Shown piece after piece: positions 575 through 10,754 of a stretch of 55,193 bases of DNA. Each line of letters begins with the position of its first letter. Within the stretch, counting starts at the first letter, position 1. The translations under genes and the position numbers were made by a program. The notes under the pieces were generated by a model. It worked only from the letters and a program-made list of their open reading frames with translations, was not told the DNA's origin and did not search any database. The stretch is taken from assembly GCF_028292925.1 (NCBI RefSeq), contig NZ_JAQGLK010000035.1, positions 1 through 55,193 of the forward strand, written 5' to 3'. The stretch comes from Sphingomonas bacterium (GTDB taxonomy: Bacteria; Pseudomonadota; Alphaproteobacteria; Sphingomonadales; Sphingomonadaceae).

Positions 575-2341
575 TCAGGCGGCGGCCTTCATCATCCCAT
601 GCTGGCCGAGCCATCGCTCGAAGTCCGGCAGCTCCATCGGTCGCGCGAAGAAATAACCCTGGCCCTCGTCGCATTTCATGGCGGAGAGCATTTCCGCCGC
701 TGCCCCCGTCTCGATGCCTTCGGCGACCACCCGGTAGCCCAGATCGTGCGATAGCGAGATCATCGAACGCACCAGGGTCTGCTCCCGCTCACCCAGCGCC
801 AGATCGCGGACGAACGACTGGTCGATCTTGACGACTTCGGCGGGCAGCCGCTGAAGGTAGGCGAGGCTGCTGTAGCCGGTGCCGAAATCATCGATGGCGA
901 GGCGGACGCCGGCGACTTCAAGTGCCTCAAGCTGCCCGATCGCTTGCGCCGGATTGTCCATGACGGCGCTTTCGGTAACCTCCAGTTCGAGCATCTCCGC
1001 CGGAACGCGGTGCTCCAGCAGATATTGCTGAACCCGAACCGCAAAGTCCTTTTCCTCCAGGTTTGCCGCGGACACGTTGATCGACAGCTGGAGCCTCAAT
1101 CCGGCCGCCCACCAGGCGCCGAGCTGCTTCAGCCCCGCACCGAGCACCCATGCGGTGATCGGCCGGGCGAGCGAGGTCTGTTCGACGATCGGGATGAACT
1201 CGCCCGGCGAGACCTCCCCCAGGGTAGGGTGCGACCAGCGCAGCAGGGCCTCGGCACCGATGCAGGCCCGCGTGGCGAGATCGACCCGCGGCTGGAAGAC
1301 GAGGCGCAGTTGGCCGGGCTCGTACAGCGCCGCGCCGAAATCGTTGAGCAGGCGGAACTGGCGGCGGTGCACGCCGTCCTTCTGCGGGGAGTAGACGCTC
1401 ACCGGCGGATCCGAAGCGCGCGCCTCCAGCGCGGCGCTGTGCGCCGTCCGCAGCACGTCCCGCGACGAAGTTTCACCCGCAAGAAAGGGCGCCACGCCGA
1501 TCGTGGCGGACATGACGAAGCGAACGTTCGATGCCTCGCGTACCTGTTCCAGTATCGAAGCGAGCATCGCGACGTAGGTCTGCTGGTCGACATCGCGCAA
1601 GGCGAGGAAGGCGAACTGGGTCGCCGCCACATGATAGAGGGTGCGCTCCGCACCGAGAACCGCCCGGAGCGCGCGTGTCCCTTCCTGCACCATGTCATCG
1701 AGGAAGCGGGAGCCCATGACGCGAACGCCATCGCTCAGCTGCTCGGGGCGGGCGAGGTCGACGAGGACGGCGAGCCGGCAGCGGCCGGGCTCGTCCCGTC
1801 CAAGGTCGTCGATGTCGTCGAGGAACTGGGTGCGGTTGGGCAGCCCGCTGAGCGGATCGATCCGGCCCAAAGCGTGCTGCAACTCGATCTGCGACATGAC
1901 CATCTTCGCAAGATCGTTCAGTGCCGCCATCTCGGCTGCGGACGCCCCGCGTGGTTCGGTGCCGAGCACGCACAGCGCCCCCAGGCCATAACCATCGCGC
2001 GTCACGAGCGGCGCCCCGGCATAGAAGCGCACACCCTGCCCCGCCAGAACGCTGCCGGCATAGCCACTGTCGGCCAGCAGATCGGGGATAACCACCATCT
2101 CGGCACTCTCGGCAACCTGCGCGCAGGGCGCTTTTTCGCGCGGGATCGAGGTGTGCTCGACGCCGACGCGGGACTTGAACCATTGCCGGTCGCGATCGGT
2201 GAGCGAGACGGCGGATATCGGCAGGCCGAAGATCTGGCTGGCCATCCGCGTGATGCGATCGAAGCTTTCGCTCGGCGGGGTATCGAGCAGGTTCAGCTTG
2301 CGCAGCGCATCCAGGCGGGCGTCTTCATTCGGGTCAGGCAT
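575..2341 (-). CDS. GAF-GGDEF(degenerate)-EAL cyclic-di-GMP phosphodiesterase
   Basis: Predicted cytoplasmic protein of 588 residues with three domains: GAF (about 15-150), GGDEF-like (about 160-310) and EAL (about 330-580). The EAL domain keeps the expected catalytic and metal motifs: EALLRW, the glutamate in LELEVTES, the paired aspartates of IDDFGTGYSS, VVKIDQSF, VAEGIET and DEGQGYFFARP. It should therefore hydrolyse c-di-GMP. The GGDEF half has the domain-opening DPLSGLPNR, but its signature loop reads AATQFAF, so cyclase activity is very unlikely and it may act as a sensor or allosteric unit. I chose the ATG at 2341 (MPDPNED), where the GAF homology begins; an in-frame ATG at 2560 would run back over the start of the divergent oxidoreductase gene. 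The input signal of the GAF domain is unknown. Confidence 0.9.
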   Translation of the reverse strand: MPDPNEDARLDALRKLNLLDTPPSESFDRITRMASQIFGLPISAVSLTDRDRQWFKSRVGVEHTSIPREKAPCAQVAESAEMVVIPDLLADSGYAGSVLAGQGVRFYAGAPLVTRDGYGLGALCVLGTEPRGASAAEMAALNDLAKMVMSQIELQHALGRIDPLSGLPNRTQFLDDIDDLGRDEPGRCRLAVLVDLARPEQLSDGVRVMGSRFLDDMVQEGTRALRAVLGAERTLYHVAATQFAFLALRDVDQQTYVAMLASILEQVREASNVRFVMSATIGVAPFLAGETSSRDVLRTAHSAALEARASDPPVSVYSPQKDGVHRRQFRLLNDFGAALYEPGQLRLVFQPRVDLATRACIGAEALLRWSHPTLGEVSPGEFIPIVEQTSLARPITAWVLGAGLKQLGAWWAAGLRLQLSINVSAANLEEKDFAVRVQQYLLEHRVPAEMLELEVTESAVMDNPAQAIGQLEALEVAGVRLAIDDFGTGYSSLAYLQRLPAEVVKIDQSFVRDLALGEREQTLVRSMISLSHDLGYRVVAEGIETGAAAEMLSAMKCDEGQGYFFARPMELPDFERWLGQHGMMKAAA

Positions 2342-2540
2342 GATGCCGCCATAGATCAACGTCCGCACCGCGGCGGTTAAGCGAAGTGGTAAACATCTGG
2401 AACCTTTCCCTTTCCCGCGGAACGCCCGCGCCTGATGCACTACCCCCGAACTCGCCGCACCGCGCCGGCGATGCCCGGCCGATGTGAACATCCATCGGGG
2501 TCGAGGCGTTGTTGCGCCACCGAGCGAGGAGTGCGGATCG

Positions 2541-4817
2541 ATGGCCGACGAGAAGGACACCGTTCACTACAAAGGCTCCGAGGGCGGATGGGGCTCCTTG
2601 CGCGGGATCGCCGAGATCCTGGTAAAGGAGGTCGATCGGCCTGCCGTGCTCGATACGCTGCGACGGCAGAACAAGGCCGGCGGTTTCATGTGCGTATCGT
2701 GCGCCTTCACCAAGCCGGCCCATCCCCACGCTTTCGAGTTTTGCGAGAACGGCGCCAAGGCGACGATCTGGGACCTGACCAGCCGCCGCTGCACGCCCGC
2801 TTTCTTCGCCAAGCACACGGTGAGCGAGCTCAGGGGCTGGAAGGATTACGATCTTGAGCAGACGGGCCGGCTGACCCACCCGATGCGCTACGATCCGGCG
2901 AGCGACAAATATGTGCCCTGCGAATGGCAGGAAGCGTTCGACGCGATCGGCGCCGAGCTGAAGGCGATCGATCCGGGATCGGCGGTGTTCTACTCGTCCG
3001 GGCGCGCCAGCCTGGAAACGGCCTACCTCTACGCGCTGTTCGCCCGGCTGTACGGCCACAACAACCTGCCCGATTCCTCGAACATGTGCCACGAGACGAC
3101 GTCGGTCGCGCTGAAGAAGCTGATCGGGTCATCGGTCGGGACCTCGGTGCTCGACGACTTCCGCCTGTGCGATGCCATCTTCTTCTTCGGCCAGAATCCC
3201 GGCACCAACAGCCCCCGGCTGCTGCACCCGCTACAGGAATGCGTCCGGCGCGGCGCCAAGATCGTCACCTTCAATCCGGTCCGCGAAAAGGGGCTGGAGA
3301 GCTTCAAGAACCCGCAGAGCCCGATCGAGATGCTGACGCCAAAGGCGACCCAGATCTCCCACCTCTACCTGCAGGTGACGGCGGGCGGCGACATCGCGGC
3401 CATGATGGGCATGATCAAGCACGTGCTCGCGGCCGAGGAGAAGAAGTGGGCGGAGCACAAGCACCACGTCCTCGACGTCGATTTCCTTCAGCAGCACACC
3501 CAGGGCTTCGAGGAGGTCAAGGCCAAGGCGGAGGCGACGAGCTGGGATGAGATCGAGCGGGAATCCGGGCTGGCGCGGGCGGACATCGAGGAGGCGGCGG
3601 ATGTCTACATCAACGCCCACCGCACCATCGCTATCTACGGCATGGGACTTACCCAGCAGGTGCACGGATTCCAGAATCTCGCGATGCTGGTCAACCTGAT
3701 GCTGCTCAAGGGCAACATCGGACGCGACGGCACCGGCATTTCGCCGATGCGCGGCCATTCCAACGTGCAAGGCCAGCGCACCGTCGGCATCTCCGAAAAG
3801 CCCGATCTGGTGCCGCTGGATACCATCGCCGCGCAGTTCGGGTTCGAGCCCCCGCGCGAGGAAGGGATGAACACGGTCAAGACCTGCGAGAAGGTCCTGT
3901 CGGGTGAGGTGAAGGCGTTCATCGGCCTCGGCGGCAACTTCCTGCGCGCGATTCCCGAACGCGAGAAGATGGAGGCCGCCTGGACGAACCTCGATCTCAC
4001 GGTACAGATCGCCACCAAGCTGAACCGCAGCCACCTTATCAATGGCAAGGTCGCCTATCTGTTGCCGTGCCTGAGCCGGACCGAAGAGGACATCCAGGCA
4101 TCCGGCCCGCAGAAGGTGACGATGGAGGACACGTTCAGCTGCATCCATGGCTCCGTCGGCAAGGCCAAGCCGGCGAGCAAGCACCTGCTGTCCGAACCGG
4201 CGATCGTGGCCGGTATCGCCAGGGCGACACTACCGCCCAGGCCGGACGTGAAGTGGGACGAGTGGGTGGCCGATTACGACCTGATCCGCGACCTGATCGA
4301 GACCACATATCCCGATGAGTTTCACGACTTCAACCAGCGCGTGTTTACGCCGGGCGGCTTCTACCGCGGAAATTCGGCGCGCGAGCGGATATGGAAGACG
4401 GAGAGCGGCAAGGCCCAGTTCACGGTGCCCTGGAACAAGAACGCCTTCGGCGTGGACGACGCGCCGGGCCGCTGGAGGCTGATCACCATGCGCTCGAACG
4501 ATCAGTTCAACACGACGATCTATGGCTATTCGGACCGGCTTCGCGGGATCGAGGGCACGCGCGACGTGCTGCTTATGAACCCCGAAGACATCGAGGCCGC
4601 CGGGCTCAAGGAGGGCCAGGTGGTGGGGCTGGCGAGCGACGCGGGCGACGGTGTCGACCGGCAGGTCGGCGGGCTGGCCGTGACGCCCTTCCTGCTGCCG
4701 CGCGGCTGCCTTGGTTCCTACTACCCCGAAATGAACCCTTTGATCCCGCTCTGGTATCATGACGAGGAATCGAAAACGCCCGCGGCCAAGAGCGTGCCTG
4801 TCCGGATCGTCGCCTGA
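2541..4817 (+). CDS. FdhF/YdeP-family molybdopterin oxidoreductase
   Basis: A 758-residue relative of formate dehydrogenase H and E. coli YdeP, expected to bind a molybdenum bis-MGD cofactor in the cytoplasm; no Tat signal is visible. N-terminal cysteines C51, C54 and C68 match the YdeP-type cluster region (CVSC, then FEFCENG). C183 in NMCHE lies where formate dehydrogenases have the Sec/Cys molybdenum ligand. The C-terminal third (from about 640, with RSNDQFNTTIYGYSDR) is the molydopterin dinucleotide-binding domain. The start at 2541 is preceded by a good CGAGGAG ribosome site; an upstream in-frame ATG at 2484 lacks one. The physiological substrate of YdeP-type enzymes is not established. 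The cytochrome oxidase operon begins 100 bases downstream in the same direction, so electron delivery to cytochrome c is possible but only inferred. Confidence 0.92.
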   Translation: MADEKDTVHYKGSEGGWGSLRGIAEILVKEVDRPAVLDTLRRQNKAGGFMCVSCAFTKPAHPHAFEFCENGAKATIWDLTSRRCTPAFFAKHTVSELRGWKDYDLEQTGRLTHPMRYDPASDKYVPCEWQEAFDAIGAELKAIDPGSAVFYSSGRASLETAYLYALFARLYGHNNLPDSSNMCHETTSVALKKLIGSSVGTSVLDDFRLCDAIFFFGQNPGTNSPRLLHPLQECVRRGAKIVTFNPVREKGLESFKNPQSPIEMLTPKATQISHLYLQVTAGGDIAAMMGMIKHVLAAEEKKWAEHKHHVLDVDFLQQHTQGFEEVKAKAEATSWDEIERESGLARADIEEAADVYINAHRTIAIYGMGLTQQVHGFQNLAMLVNLMLLKGNIGRDGTGISPMRGHSNVQGQRTVGISEKPDLVPLDTIAAQFGFEPPREEGMNTVKTCEKVLSGEVKAFIGLGGNFLRAIPEREKMEAAWTNLDLTVQIATKLNRSHLINGKVAYLLPCLSRTEEDIQASGPQKVTMEDTFSCIHGSVGKAKPASKHLLSEPAIVAGIARATLPPRPDVKWDEWVADYDLIRDLIETTYPDEFHDFNQRVFTPGGFYRGNSARERIWKTESGKAQFTVPWNKNAFGVDDAPGRWRLITMRSNDQFNTTIYGYSDRLRGIEGTRDVLLMNPEDIEAAGLKEGQVVGLASDAGDGVDRQVGGLAVTPFLLPRGCLGSYYPEMNPLIPLWYHDEESKTPAAKSVPVRIVA

Positions 4818-4917: not shown

Positions 4918-5391
4918 ATGGTGACTAAGTTGCTCCACAGATCGGTTCTGGCGCTCGCGCTCGTTGCCGCAGGATGCAGCCAGGAGGCGCGCATGCTCGG
5001 GCCGGACCTGCCGCAGACGCCACCCAACGGTGCGGACGATCCGCGCGCCGCCAAATATGACGGCAACGCCTATCAGATCTCGCAAGGGGGCCGCTACTTC
5101 GCCTGGTACGGGTGCGCCGGTTGCCACGGATCGGATGCGAAGGGGCGGCTCGCCCTCGCCGATATGCAGTGGCGCCATGGCGGCGCACTGGACGAGGTCT
5201 ATGCGTTCATCGCCCGCGGGCACCCCGGCAAGCTCGCCCGCTACGGCGATCTCATCCCGCCCGAGCAGGTTTGGCAGCTTACTGCCTACGTCCGCAGCCT
5301 GCCCGAACTTGCCCCCGAACGACGCCGCCGGCAGGATCTCGATCAAGTCGGCGAGCCGCAGGGCCGCACCTGGTCAGGCCCGGTCGAGTGA
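4918..5391 (+). CDS. Lipoprotein cytochrome c, first gene of the oxidase operon
   Basis: A 157-residue protein with a lipoprotein-type signal (basic start, hydrophobic stretch, ALVAAGC lipobox) and a single haem c site, CAGCH, at about residue 66. Later segments DLIPPEQVWQLTAYVRSLP match the C-terminal helix of class I cytochromes c. It should be a membrane-tethered periplasmic electron carrier. I start at the ATG at 4918; a GTG directly after it at 4921 would serve equally well. Its stop codon overlaps the GTG start of coxB in a GTGA arrangement, so translation is probably coupled. Position and type suggest it feeds electrons to the oxidase encoded downstream. Confidence 0.85.
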   Translation: MVTKLLHRSVLALALVAAGCSQEARMLGPDLPQTPPNGADDPRAAKYDGNAYQISQGGRYFAWYGCAGCHGSDAKGRLALADMQWRHGGALDEVYAFIARGHPGKLARYGDLIPPEQVWQLTAYVRSLPELAPERRRRQDLDQVGEPQGRTWSGPVE

Positions 5392-6398
5392 CCCTGCGCC
5401 GCGCCGCCGCGCTTGTCGGTATCCTTGGGCTGGCCGGGTGCGGTGGGGCCCAGTCGCCGCTTGCCCCGGCGGGGGAGCAGGCGGCGAGCATCGCGTCCCT
5501 CTTCTGGCTGATGATGGCGGTGTGCGGGTTCATGTACCTGCTCGTGCTGGGCTTTCTCGGCCTCGGCCTGTGGCGGGCACGGCACACGGCCGGTGTGGGG
5601 GCCGAACCGAACATCGACCCGGCGGATCGCGGCCTCACGCGCACCCTGCTGTTCTGGGCCGGGCTGGTGGTCGGCGGGCTAACCCTGCTGATCGTCGGCA
5701 GCTTCCTGGTGGACCGGACGATCGCGCAGGCACGCGCACGAACCGCGATCGAGGTCCGCGTCACCGGGCACCAGTGGTGGTGGCGCATCCACTATCGCGA
5801 TCCCGTTTCAGGCGCCTGGATCGAGAGTGCCAACGAATTGCACCTGCCCGTCGGGCGCACCACCCGCGTAACGCTGGGGTCGGCCGACGTGGTGCACAGC
5901 TTCTGGGTTCCCAACATCGCGCAAAAGCTGGATCTCATCCCCGGCTTGCAAAACGTGGTCGATCTCACCCCTACCCGCACCGGCTGGTTCCGCGGCCAAT
6001 GCGCCGAGTTCTGTGGTGCCCAGCACGCGCATATGGCGTTCGACGTCAAGGTCGACACACCTGCCGAGTTCGACCGCTGGCTTGCCGGCCAGGCGCGTGC
6101 CGCGGCCCTGCCGACGGACGCCGCGGCGATCCGCGGGATGCGGATCGTCTCCACCGGCCCATGCGCGATGTGTCACGCCGTTCGTGGCACCCGCGCGGTC
6201 GGCAGGCCGGGGCCAGACCTCACCCATATCGCCTCCCGCCGTTCGATCGCCGCCGGCACGCTGCCGATGAGCCGCGGCGGTTTGCAGGGCTGGATCGTAC
6301 AGCCCCAGGCAGTGAAGCCCGGCACCATGATGCCGCCGACGCCCCTTTCCCCCGCCGATGCCGATGCGGTATCGCGCTATCTCGCCGGACTGAAATGA
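5388..6398 (+). CDS. coxB: Cytochrome c oxidase subunit II with fused C-terminal cytochrome c
   Basis: A 336-residue caa3-type subunit II. It opens with a lipoprotein-like signal (GLAGCGG, Cys at about 18) and has two transmembrane helices (about 30-60 and 80-105). The CuA cupredoxin domain follows, with QWWW, HSFWVP and the full CuA ligand loop CAEFCGAQHAHM starting near residue 205. A C-terminal cytochrome c domain carries CAMCH near residue 260 and a probable Met ligand in GTMMPPTP. The fusion means electrons can pass from a c haem directly to CuA. The start is GTG at 5388, overlapping the previous stop. Its own stop overlaps the coxA ATG in an ATGA junction. All metal ligands are present, so the subunit looks functional. 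Confidence 0.95.
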   Translation: MTLRRAAALVGILGLAGCGGAQSPLAPAGEQAASIASLFWLMMAVCGFMYLLVLGFLGLGLWRARHTAGVGAEPNIDPADRGLTRTLLFWAGLVVGGLTLLIVGSFLVDRTIAQARARTAIEVRVTGHQWWWRIHYRDPVSGAWIESANELHLPVGRTTRVTLGSADVVHSFWVPNIAQKLDLIPGLQNVVDLTPTRTGWFRGQCAEFCGAQHAHMAFDVKVDTPAEFDRWLAGQARAAALPTDAAAIRGMRIVSTGPCAMCHAVRGTRAVGRPGPDLTHIASRRSIAAGTLPMSRGGLQGWIVQPQAVKPGTMMPPTPLSPADADAVSRYLAGLK

Positions 6399-8314
6399 AC
6401 GCATCGCCAGATCAGGCACCCGGCGCACCGGATCCGCAGGCCGCCGAACTCGCCCGTAGCTGGGGCGACCCTCCAGGCATCTGGGGCTTCCTGACGACGG
6501 TGGACCACAAGCGCATCGCCGCACGCTACATCCTTACCGTCGTCGTGCTGATGTTCCTGGCCGGCATGCTCGCGCTCGACATGCGGCTCCAGCTCAGCCA
6601 GCCCGACATGACCCGCATGGGGCCGCAGCTCTATAACGAGAGCTTCACGCTCCACGGTTCGACCATGCTGTTCCTCGTCTCCGTGCCGGTTATGGAGGCG
6701 ATGGCGATCTGGCTGGTGCCGCTGATGCTCGGCCAGCGTGCGCTCGCCTTCCCACGGCTCGCGGCATTCAGCAACTGGCTGTATATCGGCGGCGTGATGA
6801 TTCTCTGGGTGCCGCACGCGCTCGGCATCACGCCCGATCTCGGCTGGTTCGAATATCCGCCGCTCTCGGGCCCTGCTTATTCGCCCGGTCACCGTGCCGA
6901 TATCTGGGCGCAGATGATCACCTTCACGGAGGTCGCGGCGCTCGCCGCCTCCGTGAACATCGCCGTCACCATACTCAAGATGCGGCCACCCGGCATGACG
7001 CTGTCGCGGATGCCGCTGTTCATCTGGGCGATGCTGATCGCCTCGCTGATGACCATCTTCGCGCTGCCCGCGGTCATGCTGGTGACGAGCATGCTGATCG
7101 CCGATCGAATGGTCGCAACGCAGTTCTTCACGCCGGCCGCGGGCGGCGACGTCATTCTGTTCCAGCACCTCTTCTGGTGGTTCGGCCATCCGGAGGTCTA
7201 CATCATCTTCCTGCCCGCCACGGGCTTCGTCTCGGTGATCGTGGAAACCTTCTCCCGCCGGACGATCTTCGGCCATGTCGCGCTGGTGCTGTCGATGCTC
7301 GGCATCGCCGCGCTCGCCTTCGGATTGTGGGTCCACCACATGTTCGCGGTCGGATTGCCGCGGCTCGGCAACGACTTCTACACCGCGGCGAGCATGGCGG
7401 TGGCGCTGCCGGCGGGTATCCAGGTGTTCTGCTGGATCGCGACGCTGTGGAGCGGAAGGCCGCGCTTCGATACGCCGCTGCTCTGGGTGATCGGGTTCAT
7501 CACCACGTTCGTCATAGGCGGCCTGTCGGGCATCATGACCGCATCGGCGCCGCTCGATCAGCAGCTGACCGACACCTATTTCGTGGTCGCTCACTTCCAC
7601 TACGTGCTTGTCGGCGGCGCGATGTTCCCGCTGTTCGGTGCGTTCAGCTACTGGTTCCCGAAAGCGACCGGCCGCATGCTTTCGGAGTTCTGGGGCAAGG
7701 TCAGTTTCTGGCTGATCGTCGGCGGGTTCAACCTCGGCTTCTTCCCCATGCACATCCTGGGGCTGCAGGGGATGCCCCGCCGGGTCTACACCTATCCCGA
7801 GGCGATGGGCTGGGGCCCGCTCAACCTCGTCGCCTCGATCGGCTCCGCCATTGCCGTCGCGGGCGGGCTGGTGTTTGTCGCCAATGCCTGCTGGAGCCTG
7901 TACCGTGGCAAGCGCGCGGGCCCGAACCCGTGGGGCGGCTCCACGCTCGAATGGGCCACTGCCTCGCCCCCGCCGGTTTACAATTTCGATCACACGCCCG
8001 TCGTGGACAGCCTTACTCCGCTGTGGACGGCCAAAGGCGGGTTGCCAGTCATGGATGGTATGGCGCGGGATCGGCGGCAGGTGCTCGTCACCTCCCTCAT
8101 CGATGCGGTGCCGGAATATCGGCACAAGAGCCCGAAGCCGTCGATCACCCCGTTGCTCGCCGGGCTGGCGGTGACGGCGTTGTTCGTCGGCAGCATCTTC
8201 ACGCCGTGGGCGCTCGTCTGGGGAGCGATCCCGATCGCGATCACGCTGACCATCTGGTTCTGGCCGCAGCGAGAGCGGGCGGATACCGGCCCGCTGAGAA
8301 AGCGCGCACGATGA
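6395..8314 (+). CDS. coxA: Cytochrome c oxidase subunit I lacking canonical proton-channel residues
   Basis: The 639-residue catalytic subunit of an A-type haem-copper oxidase. Haem and CuB ligands are intact: H87 (LHGST), H265 and the cross-linked Tyr Y269 in GHPEVY, H314-H315 (VHHMF), and H400 and H402 (AHFHYV); E267 is also present. Compared with Rhodobacter sphaeroides CoxI recalled from memory, the D-channel Asp132 position is Ala116 (GQRALAFPR instead of GAPDMAFPR). Asn121 is Ile105, Asn139 is Ala123, and the K-channel Lys362 is Gln343 (AGIQVF instead of TGIKIF). The C-terminus adds about 100 residues with two further hydrophobic segments. The start overlaps the coxB stop and the stop overlaps the coxC start. 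It reduces oxygen to water at the membrane; whether it pumps protons is open. Confidence 0.96.
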   Translation: MNASPDQAPGAPDPQAAELARSWGDPPGIWGFLTTVDHKRIAARYILTVVVLMFLAGMLALDMRLQLSQPDMTRMGPQLYNESFTLHGSTMLFLVSVPVMEAMAIWLVPLMLGQRALAFPRLAAFSNWLYIGGVMILWVPHALGITPDLGWFEYPPLSGPAYSPGHRADIWAQMITFTEVAALAASVNIAVTILKMRPPGMTLSRMPLFIWAMLIASLMTIFALPAVMLVTSMLIADRMVATQFFTPAAGGDVILFQHLFWWFGHPEVYIIFLPATGFVSVIVETFSRRTIFGHVALVLSMLGIAALAFGLWVHHMFAVGLPRLGNDFYTAASMAVALPAGIQVFCWIATLWSGRPRFDTPLLWVIGFITTFVIGGLSGIMTASAPLDQQLTDTYFVVAHFHYVLVGGAMFPLFGAFSYWFPKATGRMLSEFWGKVSFWLIVGGFNLGFFPMHILGLQGMPRRVYTYPEAMGWGPLNLVASIGSAIAVAGGLVFVANACWSLYRGKRAGPNPWGGSTLEWATASPPPVYNFDHTPVVDSLTPLWTAKGGLPVMDGMARDRRQVLVTSLIDAVPEYRHKSPKPSITPLLAGLAVTALFVGSIFTPWALVWGAIPIAITLTIWFWPQRERADTGPLRKRAR

Positions 8315-8928
8315 CCGATCCCATCCCCAGCCGCATCGTCGGCGATCTGTCGCACTTGCCCGAAAGCGCCATGGGTGCGCGCAACATGGTCTGGTGGGGC
8401 AATATCGGCTTCATGGCGATCGAGGGCACCGCCTTCGTGCTTGCGGCCGGCACCTATCTCTACCTGATGAGCCAGAGCGCCGCCTGGCCTCCCCCCGGCG
8501 ATCGTCCGCCCGATCTGCTATGGGGCATCATCTTCACGGTGGGGCTGCTGCTCAGCGCCCTGCCGAACCTCTGGGTGTTCCGCTCTGCGCGCCGCAAGGA
8601 TGCCAGGGCGGTCCGTCGCAGCACGCTGGCGATGGCGGTGATCGGTGCCGCCCTCCTGATCCCGCGTGGGTTGGAATTGGCGCACCTCAACGTCCCCTGG
8701 TATGGGGACGCCTATGGATCGGTGCTGTGGATGCTCATGGTGCTCCACACCAGCCACATCCTCACCGACTGGGGCGATACCTGCGTGCAGGCGCTCTGGC
8801 TCTATACGCACAAGATCGGGGACGATCAGTTCGCCGACGTCGAGGATAATTCCAATTACTGGACCTTCGTCGTCCTGAGTTGGCTGCCGATCGGCGCGCT
8901 CGTCTATCTCGCGCCGAGGCTGGGATGA
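8311..8928 (+). CDS. coxC: Cytochrome c oxidase subunit III-like membrane protein
   Basis: A 205-residue, five-helix membrane protein of the short subunit III class (a typical CoxC is about 200 or 260-290 residues). Landmarks are WWGNIGFMAIEGTAF near the start, the second helix with GLLLSALPN, and a C-terminal LHTSHILTDWGD that ends in TFVVLSWLP. In the family these helices bind lipid and stabilise the catalytic core. ATGA overlaps at both ends (with coxA upstream and the small membrane protein downstream) support membership of one co-translated operon. Confidence is slightly lower than for coxA and coxB because subunit III sequences are weakly conserved. Confidence 0.88.
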   Translation: MTDPIPSRIVGDLSHLPESAMGARNMVWWGNIGFMAIEGTAFVLAAGTYLYLMSQSAAWPPPGDRPPDLLWGIIFTVGLLLSALPNLWVFRSARRKDARAVRRSTLAMAVIGAALLIPRGLELAHLNVPWYGDAYGSVLWMLMVLHTSHILTDWGDTCVQALWLYTHKIGDDQFADVEDNSNYWTFVVLSWLPIGALVYLAPRLG

Positions 8929-9269
8929 GCGACACTCCCCCGCTTTCCCGCGGCGAACGCGTCCGGCCGTGGCTGGCGCTCGTATTGCCACCCACCGCCT
9001 GGTACGTGTTCGAGTTAGGCCTTGCGAGCGCGCTGAAAGAAGCATGCGGGCCGGTCGGCGGCTGGCTGGGAATCGTGTGGGGCGCGGCGAGCCTCGTCGT
9101 CTGCGCGGCTGCCGCCGCACTTGCCTGGCCCTATGCCGGCCCGGCGGGGGATCAGACGCCGCCGCGGCAATGGCTCGCACGGGTGGCGTTGCTCCTGTCC
9201 GGCATCTTCGCGCTGGCCATCGCCTTCCAGACGCTCGGCGTCCTGATCGTGCCGCCGTGCGTGCGTTGA
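8925..9269 (+). CDS. Small three-helix membrane protein in the oxidase operon
   Basis: A 114-residue hydrophobic protein with about three transmembrane helices (roughly 17-37, 46-66 and 84-106). I do not recognise a named family. Its place, overlapping coxC by an ATGA junction and overlapping the CtaG gene, suggests a small accessory subunit or assembly helper of the oxidase, comparable in position to subunit IV proteins. No metal-binding motif is visible. Three cysteines (in EACGP, VVCAA and PPCVR) are present without obvious pattern. The function is inferred from context only. Confidence 0.75.
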   Translation: MSDTPPLSRGERVRPWLALVLPPTAWYVFELGLASALKEACGPVGGWLGIVWGAASLVVCAAAAALAWPYAGPAGDQTPPRQWLARVALLLSGIFALAIAFQTLGVLIVPPCVR

Positions 9270-10165
9270 TACGCCTCGCGCTGCTGCCGGCGCTGGCCCT
9301 CGCTGCGCCGGCCATGGCCCATGCCGGCCACGATCATCGAAACCCTCCCGGCTGGACATGGGATCCCTGGATCTCAGGCCCGCTGCTTCTGTCGGCACTG
9401 ATATTCGCGTTCGGCTGGCGAAGGCTGCATGCCCGCTCGGCAGGTGGGCGGGCACGGCTCGTCCGCCGTGCCTGGCTGTTCGCGGGCGGCTGGCTGGCGA
9501 TGGCCGGCGCCCTCGTCTCCCCGCTGCACGAGGCAGGGGAACGCTCCTTCACCGCCCATATGCTGGAACATGAGCTGCTGATGCTGGTGGCAGCCCCGCT
9601 GATCGTTCTGGCCGAGCCGCTGTCGGCGATGCTCTGGGCCTTTGCCCCCGATGCCCGGCGCGCGATCGGCAACGTCTCCAGCAGCGGTCCGGTCTCCGCC
9701 GTCTTCTCGGCACTCACGGGCGCGATCACCGCAACCGCGATCCAGTCGGCGATATTGTGGATCTGGCACATGCCCGCTTTGTTCGATCTGGCACTGGCCA
9801 GCGAGGGGTGGCACGCAACCCAGCATCTCTGCTTCGTGGTCAGCGCGCTCTTGTTCTGGACCGCCATGCTCGGCCGCCGCGGCGGCGGCGCGGGTGAGCC
9901 CGGCGCCCGCGCGCTTGCCGCATTATGCCTGCTCGCGACTTCGCTGGTCACGGGCGCGCTCGGCGCACTCATGGCCTTCTCCGAAAGCCCCTGGTATGCG
10001 GGCTATGCCCGTCTCGCCCGTGCACCTTTCGGCCTCAGCCCCGCGGAGGATCAGCAGGTCGCCGGCCTCATCATGTGGATTCCGGGTGGCCTGCTCCACG
10101 CGGTCGCTGCCCTTCTACTGTTTCGCTCCGTGATAGCGCCACAGAGAGCCGCCAATGCCCCATAG
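9257..10165 (+). CDS. ctaG: CtaG-type (caa3) cytochrome c oxidase assembly factor
   Basis: About 302 residues with an N-terminal hydrophobic segment followed by HAGHDH and then roughly seven transmembrane helices. Conserved histidines include HMLEHELLM, IWHMPALFD and ATQHLCF, the pattern of the caa3_CtaG family, which is tied to assembly of the copper site of caa3 oxidases. This is unrelated to the Cox11-type protein also called CtaG. I start at GTG 9257, which overlaps the previous gene by 13 bases; a TTG at 9266 overlapping its stop is an alternative. The gene overlaps the following cytochrome c gene by 11 bases. No Sco-type or Cox11-type gene is seen nearby, so this is the only copper-assembly candidate in the operon. 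Confidence 0.88.
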   Translation: MRALIRLALLPALALAAPAMAHAGHDHRNPPGWTWDPWISGPLLLSALIFAFGWRRLHARSAGGRARLVRRAWLFAGGWLAMAGALVSPLHEAGERSFTAHMLEHELLMLVAAPLIVLAEPLSAMLWAFAPDARRAIGNVSSSGPVSAVFSALTGAITATAIQSAILWIWHMPALFDLALASEGWHATQHLCFVVSALLFWTAMLGRRGGGAGEPGARALAALCLLATSLVTGALGALMAFSESPWYAGYARLARAPFGLSPAEDQQVAGLIMWIPGGLLHAVAALLLFRSVIAPQRAANAP

Positions 10166-10565
10166 CCTGCGCTTCGTCCTGCTGCTCACCGGGCTCGCCA
10201 CCCTGGCCGGTATCGCTTCGGTCGCCGTCCTGTACGGGCAGGACGCGGCACAGGCACGCACCACGGCGGAGCAGATCACCGGCGGTCATGCCGATGCCGG
10301 AAAGGCTGCGATGCTCCGCTATGGCTGCGGCGCGTGCCACCAGATCCCCGGCATCTCCGGCGCGCAGGGCCAGGTCGGCCCGTCTCTCCGCGCCATCGGC
10401 ACGCGATCCGAAATTGCAGGCGTGCTCGCCAACGATCCGCAAAACCTCATCCGCTGGATCCGCGATCCGCAGGAAGTCGTACCCGGCAACGGCATGCCGG
10501 ATCAGGGCATCAGCGAAGGCGATGCGCGCGACATCGCGGCCTATCTCTACACGATCCGGCGCTAG
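10155..10565 (+). CDS. Membrane-anchored cytochrome c, last gene of the oxidase operon
   Basis: A 136-residue protein with an N-terminal hydrophobic anchor or signal (residues about 7-28) and one haem c site, CGACH, near residue 58. A probable axial Met lies in NGMPDQGIS, and the C-terminal helix DARDIAAYLYTIR is of class I type. It overlaps the ctaG 3' end by 11 bases. It is the third c-type haem in the operon, after the lipoprotein cytochrome and the CoxB domain, and is likely a periplasmic electron donor held at the inner membrane. Confidence 0.9.
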   Translation: MPHSLRFVLLLTGLATLAGIASVAVLYGQDAAQARTTAEQITGGHADAGKAAMLRYGCGACHQIPGISGAQGQVGPSLRAIGTRSEIAGVLANDPQNLIRWIRDPQEVVPGNGMPDQGISEGDARDIAAYLYTIRR

Positions 10566-10679: not shown

Positions 10680-10754
10680 TGGCTGGGGCGGCAGGATTCG
10701 AACCTGCGGATGGCGGCACCAAAAGCCGCTGCCTTACCACTTGGCGACGCCCCA
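10680..10754 (-). tRNA. tRNA-Gln (anticodon TTG)
   Basis: Read on the minus strand, the acceptor stem TGGGGCG pairs with CGCCCCA, followed by discriminator G and an encoded CCA (complement of 10680-10682). The anticodon loop is CTTTTGG with anticodon TTG, and the T-arm has GGTTCGAATCC. The 75 bases have no intron. The gene lies between the oxidase operon and the epimerase gene. Confidence 0.97.

Follow-up and report, generated by a model that had tools for sequence, protein, structure and literature searches.

The coxA gene and the fate of its channel residues

In the present study, a stretch of 55,193 nucleotides from a Sphingomonas genome (contig NZ_JAQGLK010000035.1 of assembly GCF_028292925.1; hereafter the window) was analysed with respect to coxA, which encodes subunit I of a haem-copper oxidase within a cluster of oxidase genes (Table 1). 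The coxA reading frame extends from its ATG to a stop codon and matches the Pfam COX1 model across the full profile with 468.8 bits. Fold and sequence together place the protein in the A-family, according to Pfam, the PDB matches, the comparison of structures and the phylogenetic tree. The six histidine ligands and the helix VI tyrosine that characterise a haem-copper oxygen reductase are present, and coxA retains H87, H265, E267, Y269, H314, H315, H400 and H402.

Substitutions are numbered herein as in Rhodobacter sphaeroides, and residues of the window protein are counted from the ATG at 6395. The two numberings were connected by aligning the window protein with the canonical subunit I of the same host (L001) and L001 with the R. 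sphaeroides protein (1m56); the channel Asp, Asn, Thr and Lys are all present in L001. Through this chain, the D-channel residues N121, D132 and N139 correspond to I105, A116 and A123, and the K-channel residues T359 and K362 to A340 and Q343. The same substitutions are visible in HMMER alignments of coxA to the aa3-600 quinol oxidase and to mycobacterial aa3. Misalignment was considered and rejected, as two modes of MAFFT, the HMMER alignments and the rows added later all agree.

The Asp, Glu and Lys residues of the D- and K-channels are treated as essential in model A-family enzymes, and the classification into A, B and C types is built on them. Sousa 2011 (PMC3084760) defines oxidase types by channel residues, and the A1 fingerprint given in the footnote to its Table 2 is found in coxA only in part. 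Glu278 (E286) is kept as E267, as it is in 90 of the 90 relatives that have no acid at position 132, while Asp124, Asn113 and Asn131 of the D-channel are replaced by A116, I105 and A123, and Lys354 and Thr351 of the K-channel by Q343 and A340. The B-type fingerprint stated in that source has Thr, Ser and Tyr for Lys354, Thr351 and Ser291, where coxA has Gln, Ala and Ser. A B- or C-type identity of coxA was rejected on the basis of the PDB sequence matches and the residue states.

The original prediction had held that all haem and CuB ligands and the cross-link tyrosine are intact, that the channel-end Glu is retained and that five channel residues are substituted (D132A, N121I, N139A, K362Q and T359A). 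The alignment bears this out residue by residue, and the kept ligands support its expectation that the oxygen chemistry should work. Its wording that both proton channels are "erased" stands for the D- and K-fingerprint residues, which are gone, but not for the region as a whole, which is re-lined by new carboxylates on helices II and IV.

The predicted structure of coxA (mean predicted local distance difference test score 90.7, predicted template modelling score 0.92) supplied the helix limits used here. Among the 50 structures listed for comparison, Z scores range from 38.6 to 46.6, with bo3 first; the R. sphaeroides entries score between 42.2 and 44.1, with root-mean-square deviations of 1.8-1.9 Å, and the mutants D132A and K362M are among them. 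The C-terminal tail, to residue 625, was aligned with the last helices of subunit I of bo3 and caa3, and for this reason it seems to resemble these helices more than a separate COX4.

Table 1. Features of the oxidase region (window coordinates). Locus counts refer to the best 80 of 587 confirmed relatives, and rows are aligned subunit I sequences. Gene starts are inferred, except that of coxA.
Feature	Position	Strand	Basis or remark
Divergent neighbour, from its translation a putative GAF/GGDEF/EAL signalling protein	575-2560	-	
Molybdopterin oxidoreductase of the FdhF/YdeP family, at the head of the cluster	2541..4817	+	TIGR01701, 918 bits
Small c-type cytochrome, lipoprotein-like by eye	4918..5391	+	Cytochrome_CBB3 (PF13442); before coxB in 73/80 loci
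coxB, subunit II, CuA site and C-terminal cytochrome c domain (CAMCH)	5388..6398	+	PF00116, PF00034, TIGR02866, motifs
coxA, A-family subunit I of 639 aa with two additional membrane helices at the C-terminus	6395..8314	+	PF00115, PDB matches, predicted structure
Codon E101, helix II	6695..6697	+	Glu in 113/130 Q343 rows, 0/40 Lys362 rows
Codon I105 (N121 position)	6707..6709	+	alignment
Codon A116 (D132 position)	6740..6742	+	alignment
Codon A123 (N139 position)	6761..6763	+	alignment
Codon E179, helix IV (G198 position)	6929..6931	+	alignment
Codon E267 (E286 position), retained	7193..7195	+	alignment
Codons A340 (T359) to Q343 (K362)	7412..7423	+	alignment
Short subunit III	8311..8928	+	weak NF050119 and CyoC matches; no Pfam match; in 79/80 loci
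Small protein without family match	8925..9269	+	neither Pfam nor NCBIfam gives a match at E 0.001; similar gene in 23/80 loci
Caa3_CtaG assembly factor, TTG start inferred	9266..10165	+	PF09678, 167.9 bits; in 72/80 loci
Second c-type cytochrome	10155..10565	+	PF00034; downstream of coxA in 77/80 loci
tRNA-Gln gene	10680-10754	-	

Distribution of the channel state and the order of its changes

Relatives of coxA were collected by scanning the GTDB genome set, and the best 80 of 587 confirmed relatives (54-84% identity) were used. Residues were counted in a final set of 176 aligned subunit I rows with groups chosen by residue state; an earlier alignment held 147 rows, and the 29 loci added later were the best matches of their own search rather than a random draw. 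The rows are related by descent, and the counts are thus not independent events. Two groupings are used below: 90 rows defined by residue, namely the Gln rows without an acid at 132 (Asp132-less rows), and 86 rows defined by locus, which include L114 with Glu at 132.

The position of Lys362 is occupied by Gln in 130 rows, by Lys in 40 and by another residue in 6. Position 179 divides the rows in the same way, with Glu in 130/130 Gln rows and Gly in 46/46 others. The 29 loci added after this rule had been seen all conform to it (20 with Gln and Glu, 9 with neither Gln nor Glu but Gly). A comparison of 110 Gln rows with 34 Lys rows showed eight columns with a different fixed residue in each group, and among these, besides the defining change to Q343, only the change from Gly to E179 is without exception on both sides. 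Of the 130 Gln rows, 113 carry Glu at position 101 and 17 carry Gln, and 93 have Glu at the N207 site. At position 132, these rows have Asp (36), Glu (4), Asn (72), Ala (8), Ser (7), Thr (2) or Gln (1), so that 90 of them (90/176 overall) have no acid there. In the Asp132-less rows, the six histidine ligands are found in 90/90 and the tyrosine in 89/90, and D37 occurs in 82. Three Gln rows of 832-852 residues (L167, L168 and L169) have Glu at the Asp132 site; an acid of another length seems to be tolerated.

The order of these changes was read from a maximum-likelihood tree of 47 rows, computed without nine trait columns and free of long-branch flags, which is the tree relied on. In a preliminary tree of 84 of the 147 rows, the long branches L147 and L115 were flagged, and false joining is possible there. 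On the 47-row tree, Lys362 was lost at the base of a group of 38 rows (support 100/99), E179 was gained at a group of 35 rows (97/91) and Asp132 was lost at a group of 23 rows; parsimony requires one change for each of the three. Lys362 was lost first and Asp132 later. The intermediate stages are still living, as lineages with Lys lost and Asp kept exist beside lineages in which both are lost. Erosion has gone furthest in the sub-branch of the window, where D132 and N139 are both replaced by Ala. A third A-family group of six rows (L116, L117, L123, L154, L155 and L156) was also observed, with D132, N121 and N139 kept, Trp for Glu286, Ala, Gly, Ser or Thr at the Lys362 site and Gly at 179. The motif GHPWVY was seen in L116, L117 and L123, and these three rows place the group on the tree as the sister of the E179 group.

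The earlier suggestion to ask by phylogeny whether a clade shares the loss is thus answered in the affirmative. The channel state of coxA is shared by a wide clade and is neither chance nor the oddity of a single genome, and because it is common to a wide clade it is an old, selected design. Among the best 80 of the 587 relatives, the hosts include Sphingomonas, Sphingobium, Novosphingobium, Aureimonas, Bradyrhizobium, Rhizobium, Sinorhizobium, Mesorhizobium, relatives of Roseomonas, Burkholderiales, one metagenome-assembled genome of Acidobacteria and others. The carriers thus form a large set of soil- and water-dwelling bacteria.

Selection on the gene was estimated by the Nei-Gojobori method, applied to GC-rich genes, from the ratio of non-synonymous to synonymous substitution rates (dN/dS). 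Four pairs of coxA with relatives gave 0.143 (L003), 0.229 (L005), 0.197 (L010) and 0.149 (L008), with dS of 0.54-0.94, and coxA is under purifying selection. All haem and CuB histidines are kept in the 80 relatives, and the cross-link tyrosine in all except L009, whose subunit I has Asn in its place and every His ligand. L009 is the one point that would speak for a decaying or inactive paralogue, a reading that is scarcely credible in view of the dN/dS values, the retained ligands and the presence of coxB and subunit III alongside coxA in 79/80 loci each. A pseudogene was rejected on the dN/dS values and the ligands, and the original argument from the complete operon that the gene is not decaying is upheld.

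The changes extend to subunit II, which the original prediction had not noticed, just as it had not noticed the new carboxylates. The coxB product has no acid at the mouth of the K-channel, and the corresponding subunit II Glu (Glu101) is absent in 84/84 subunit II rows of the clade, none of which has an acid within four columns of the site. This Glu is kept in 14/16 Lys-bearing rows, the exceptions being one gap and one Ile. Among the Gln rows outside the Asp132-less group, in the 147-row set, 14/24 have subunit II within the stretch, with a non-acid residue at the K-mouth in 12 and a gap in 2. The CuA ligands are retained in 84/84 clade rows (C207, C211, H215, M218 and H172 in coxB, numbered from base 5382). 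As judged from these alignments, the K-channel appears to have been given up in subunits I and II together. A reduced K route, in which waters held by Q343, S280, S333 and Y269 would carry the protons and no new path would be required, is improbable for this reason. S333 (130/130 Gln rows), S280 (119/130) and the invariance of Q343 in the clade do indicate that the region is constrained. However, the mouth acid of subunit II is gone, the T359 site is Ala in 66/90 Asp132-less rows, and the review PMC8239185 describes the terminal residues of either channel, at the mouth and at the inner end, as essential.

Proton delivery to the binuclear centre

Herein, we propose that the enzyme to which coxA contributes the catalytic subunit is an accessory caa3-type oxidase, and that in it a single route centred on E179 leads to Glu286, with low or no pumping; a probability of roughly 40% is assigned to this reading. 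First, it would come from a lineage of A-family oxidases in which the K-channel was dropped in subunits I and II and, later, the mouth acid of the D-channel, an order that the tree shows. Second, the protons for water formation would reach the binuclear centre by the E179 route, with the help of E101 where it is present, and through E267. Third, little or no pumping would be expected because a separate K route and a mouth acid are both missing. The retention of an acid at 132 in the earlier stage, which adds E101, E179 and E207, speaks for entry from the cytoplasm, and the Asp132-less branch may retain that entry in an altered form. The oxidase would work beside the normal aa3, probably as a low-coupling electron outlet, and low or nil pumping fits an accessory oxidase that is kept beside a canonical one. 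In favour of this reading are the strict pairing of Q343 with E179, the loss of the subunit II Glu, the single changes on the tree, the retained active-site His and CuA ligands, the low dN/dS values and the canonical subunit I in the same genome.

According to the model, E179 would lie 12 residues into helix IV, near the depth of E267, and E101 would be separated from the N121 site by roughly one turn of the helix. In A-type channels, as they are described in PMC8239185, an ionisable residue is found at the mouth and at the end and none within, E286 is isolated, and the D-channel carries six of eight protons and the K-channel two. The clade would depart from the pattern of no inner ionisable residue and an isolated E286 if E179 lies where it is placed here.

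Several points weigh against this proposal. That E179 or E101 would face the old D-channel is argued from helix periodicity and depth, and the same periodicity puts E179 some 100 degrees away from the face with the S197, S200 and N207 positions. The lower D region is very apolar in the sub-branch of the window (I105, A116, A123, A124, A181 and A182), and R44 and K195 (90/90 Asp132-less rows each) and R115 (89/90) near the old mouth are unhelpful for proton uptake. The node at which Asp132 is lost has modest support (86/85). Gly179 is also found in the six rows of the third group, whose Lys362 site holds neither Lys nor Gln, which means that loss of the Lys need not by itself bring E179. No biochemical data on any clade member were found.

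The positive charge of the old mouth in turn speaks for the chief rival, which is uptake from the periplasm as in cytochrome c-dependent nitric oxide reductase, a non-electrogenic and non-pumping arrangement. In that case, the Asp132-less branch would have shut the cytoplasmic mouth and opened a polar outer path along helix IV to E179; if this is true, the branch may take protons from outside and so respire without pumping. By the helix limits of the model and the usual topology, residues 90, 173, 176 and 178 should fall within the outer half of helix II or IV. All Asp132-less rows have Q173, T176, T or S at 178 and T, N or S at 90, whereas of the 39 Gln rows that do not belong to it none has Q173 or T178, 5/39 have T90 and 15/39 have T176. 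In Thermus ba3, the D132 site is Arg and the D-pathway is listed as inactive (PMC12901375, in the part concerned with these pathways). Nevertheless, periplasmic uptake is considered unlikely. The same 39 rows have an acid at 132 (36 Asp, 3 Glu), which points to cytoplasmic entry at the time when E179 arose; R115 is already present in 39/39, so that the positive mouth partly predates the loss of Asp132 (R44 is found in 16/39 and K or R195 in 33/39); and T176, as counted above, also occurs beyond the Asp132-less group.

A pathway of the bovine H type was also weighed. Putative counterparts of bovine R38, Y371, H413 and S382 were assigned from the bovine sequence. R64 (R38) is found in 86/86 rows of the locus-defined group and Y395 (Y371) in 85/86, but 72/86 rows have Ala, Ser or Val at the H413 site and 86/86 have Ile, Val or Leu at the S382 site, which would weaken the path. 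As the role of the H-pathway in bacteria is also described as disputed in part of PMC12901375, proton delivery by this way is highly improbable.

The clade is of wider interest. It is a widespread, selected lineage in which the oxygen chemistry is apparently intact, in which Asp132, Lys362 and the subunit II Glu are missing, and in which a candidate substitute acid can be mutated. The enzyme may thus serve as a natural system for testing the minimal needs of proton feeding and pumping in haem-copper oxidases.

Relation to known oxidases and genomic setting

Canonical A1 aa3 oxidases (R. sphaeroides, P. denitrificans and L001) share the fold, the metal ligands, E286 and Tyr288 with coxA, and differ in having D132, N121, N139, K362, T359, the subunit II Glu101 and Gly at 179. 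The COX1-3 fusion oxidases of Proteobacteria (for example S. meliloti pSymA, L145) share Gln362, the loss of N121, E101, E179 and E207, and form the sister lineage on the tree, 15 of their 39 rows being later additions outside it; unlike the window protein, they keep an acid at 132. In this group, 38/39 rows have at least 800 residues, which fits a fusion. In L144 (Paraburkholderia), an Asp132-less subunit I is annotated as a single ctaD gene 866 codons long, in what looks like a fusion with subunit III. Fusion and loss of Asp132 are not mutually exclusive, since L144 seems to combine the two.

B- and C-type oxidases (ba3 and cbb3) are also without the D-channel acid, and the N121 site of ba3 is Val in Table 2 of PMC12901375. 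They keep a K-type channel and are without E286, whereas coxA is the reverse, with the K residues lost and E286 kept; in sequence it is only distantly similar to ba3 (E values of 7e-9 to 7e-6). It might be suggested that both textbook routes have been replaced by one helix IV Glu route, as a mirror image of the B and C types, with uptake from outside possible in the Asp132-less branch, but this is regarded as doubtful. What is found is a real, clade-wide, selected rewiring of a known oxidase type. The loss of the K-channel in family A is already published. Degli Esposti et al. 2021 reportedly provide supplementary lists of K- and D-channel variants. The double loss of D and K residues with the gain of E179 was not found by full-text searches of the literature, and older papers such as Pereira 2001 and 2002 may hold part of it.

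The operon resembles the A1 subtype a or a-II among the operon types described by Degli Esposti 2014 (PMC4013037) and Degli Esposti and co-workers 2019 (PMC6431628), where it is defined by a COX4-like two-helix tail on subunit I and a five-helix COX3. According to the passages on this subtype, the shared features are a second oxidase in alphaproteobacteria, a two-helix C-terminal tail, a short subunit III and Caa3_CtaG nearby; cytochrome c is frequently fused to subunit II in that subtype, as it is here. The tail is termed a COX4 fusion in PMC4013037, and that of coxA aligns with the bo3 and caa3 helices. Channel residues are not mentioned in the passages of the two papers on subtype a. The CoxMNOP oxidases of Bradyrhizobium, Rhizobium etli and Pseudomonas KF707 are alternative aa3 or caa3 enzymes of partly the same kinds of hosts (PMC4274787, PMC5492768, in the sections on these enzymes); they are likened here by description, and CoxM of KF707 is reported with two haems c, whereas the subunit II of the window has one.

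The genes of the cluster, from the FdhF/YdeP gene through the second cytochrome c, are closely spaced. Gene neighbours were counted by position in the 80 loci, some of which end at contig ends. The host genome, an assembly of 2.81 Mb in 224 contigs with a completeness of about 95%, contains one further Pfam COX1 gene, that of L001 on contig C216, a canonical aa3 with every channel residue present. When the host and 58 relatives were compared, one other genome (G012, 77%) had a match over the full length with more than 50% identity, and the operon is therefore patchy. It is carried on plasmids in records of Sphingobium (S. yanoikuyae CC4533), Rhizobium and Paraburkholderia. The tRNA-Gln gene lies right behind the operon and might be an insertion point for such a patchy cluster.

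A literature search for YdeP beside a cytochrome oxidase found no report of such a link. With at least 45% identity over 300 residues within the locus flanks as the threshold, an FdhF/YdeP homologue lies near the oxidase in 41/80 loci (36/59 of those with complete flanks), on the same strand in 31 and on the opposite strand in 10. It is located directly upstream in the Sphingobium and Rhizobium records and downstream in Paraburkholderia.

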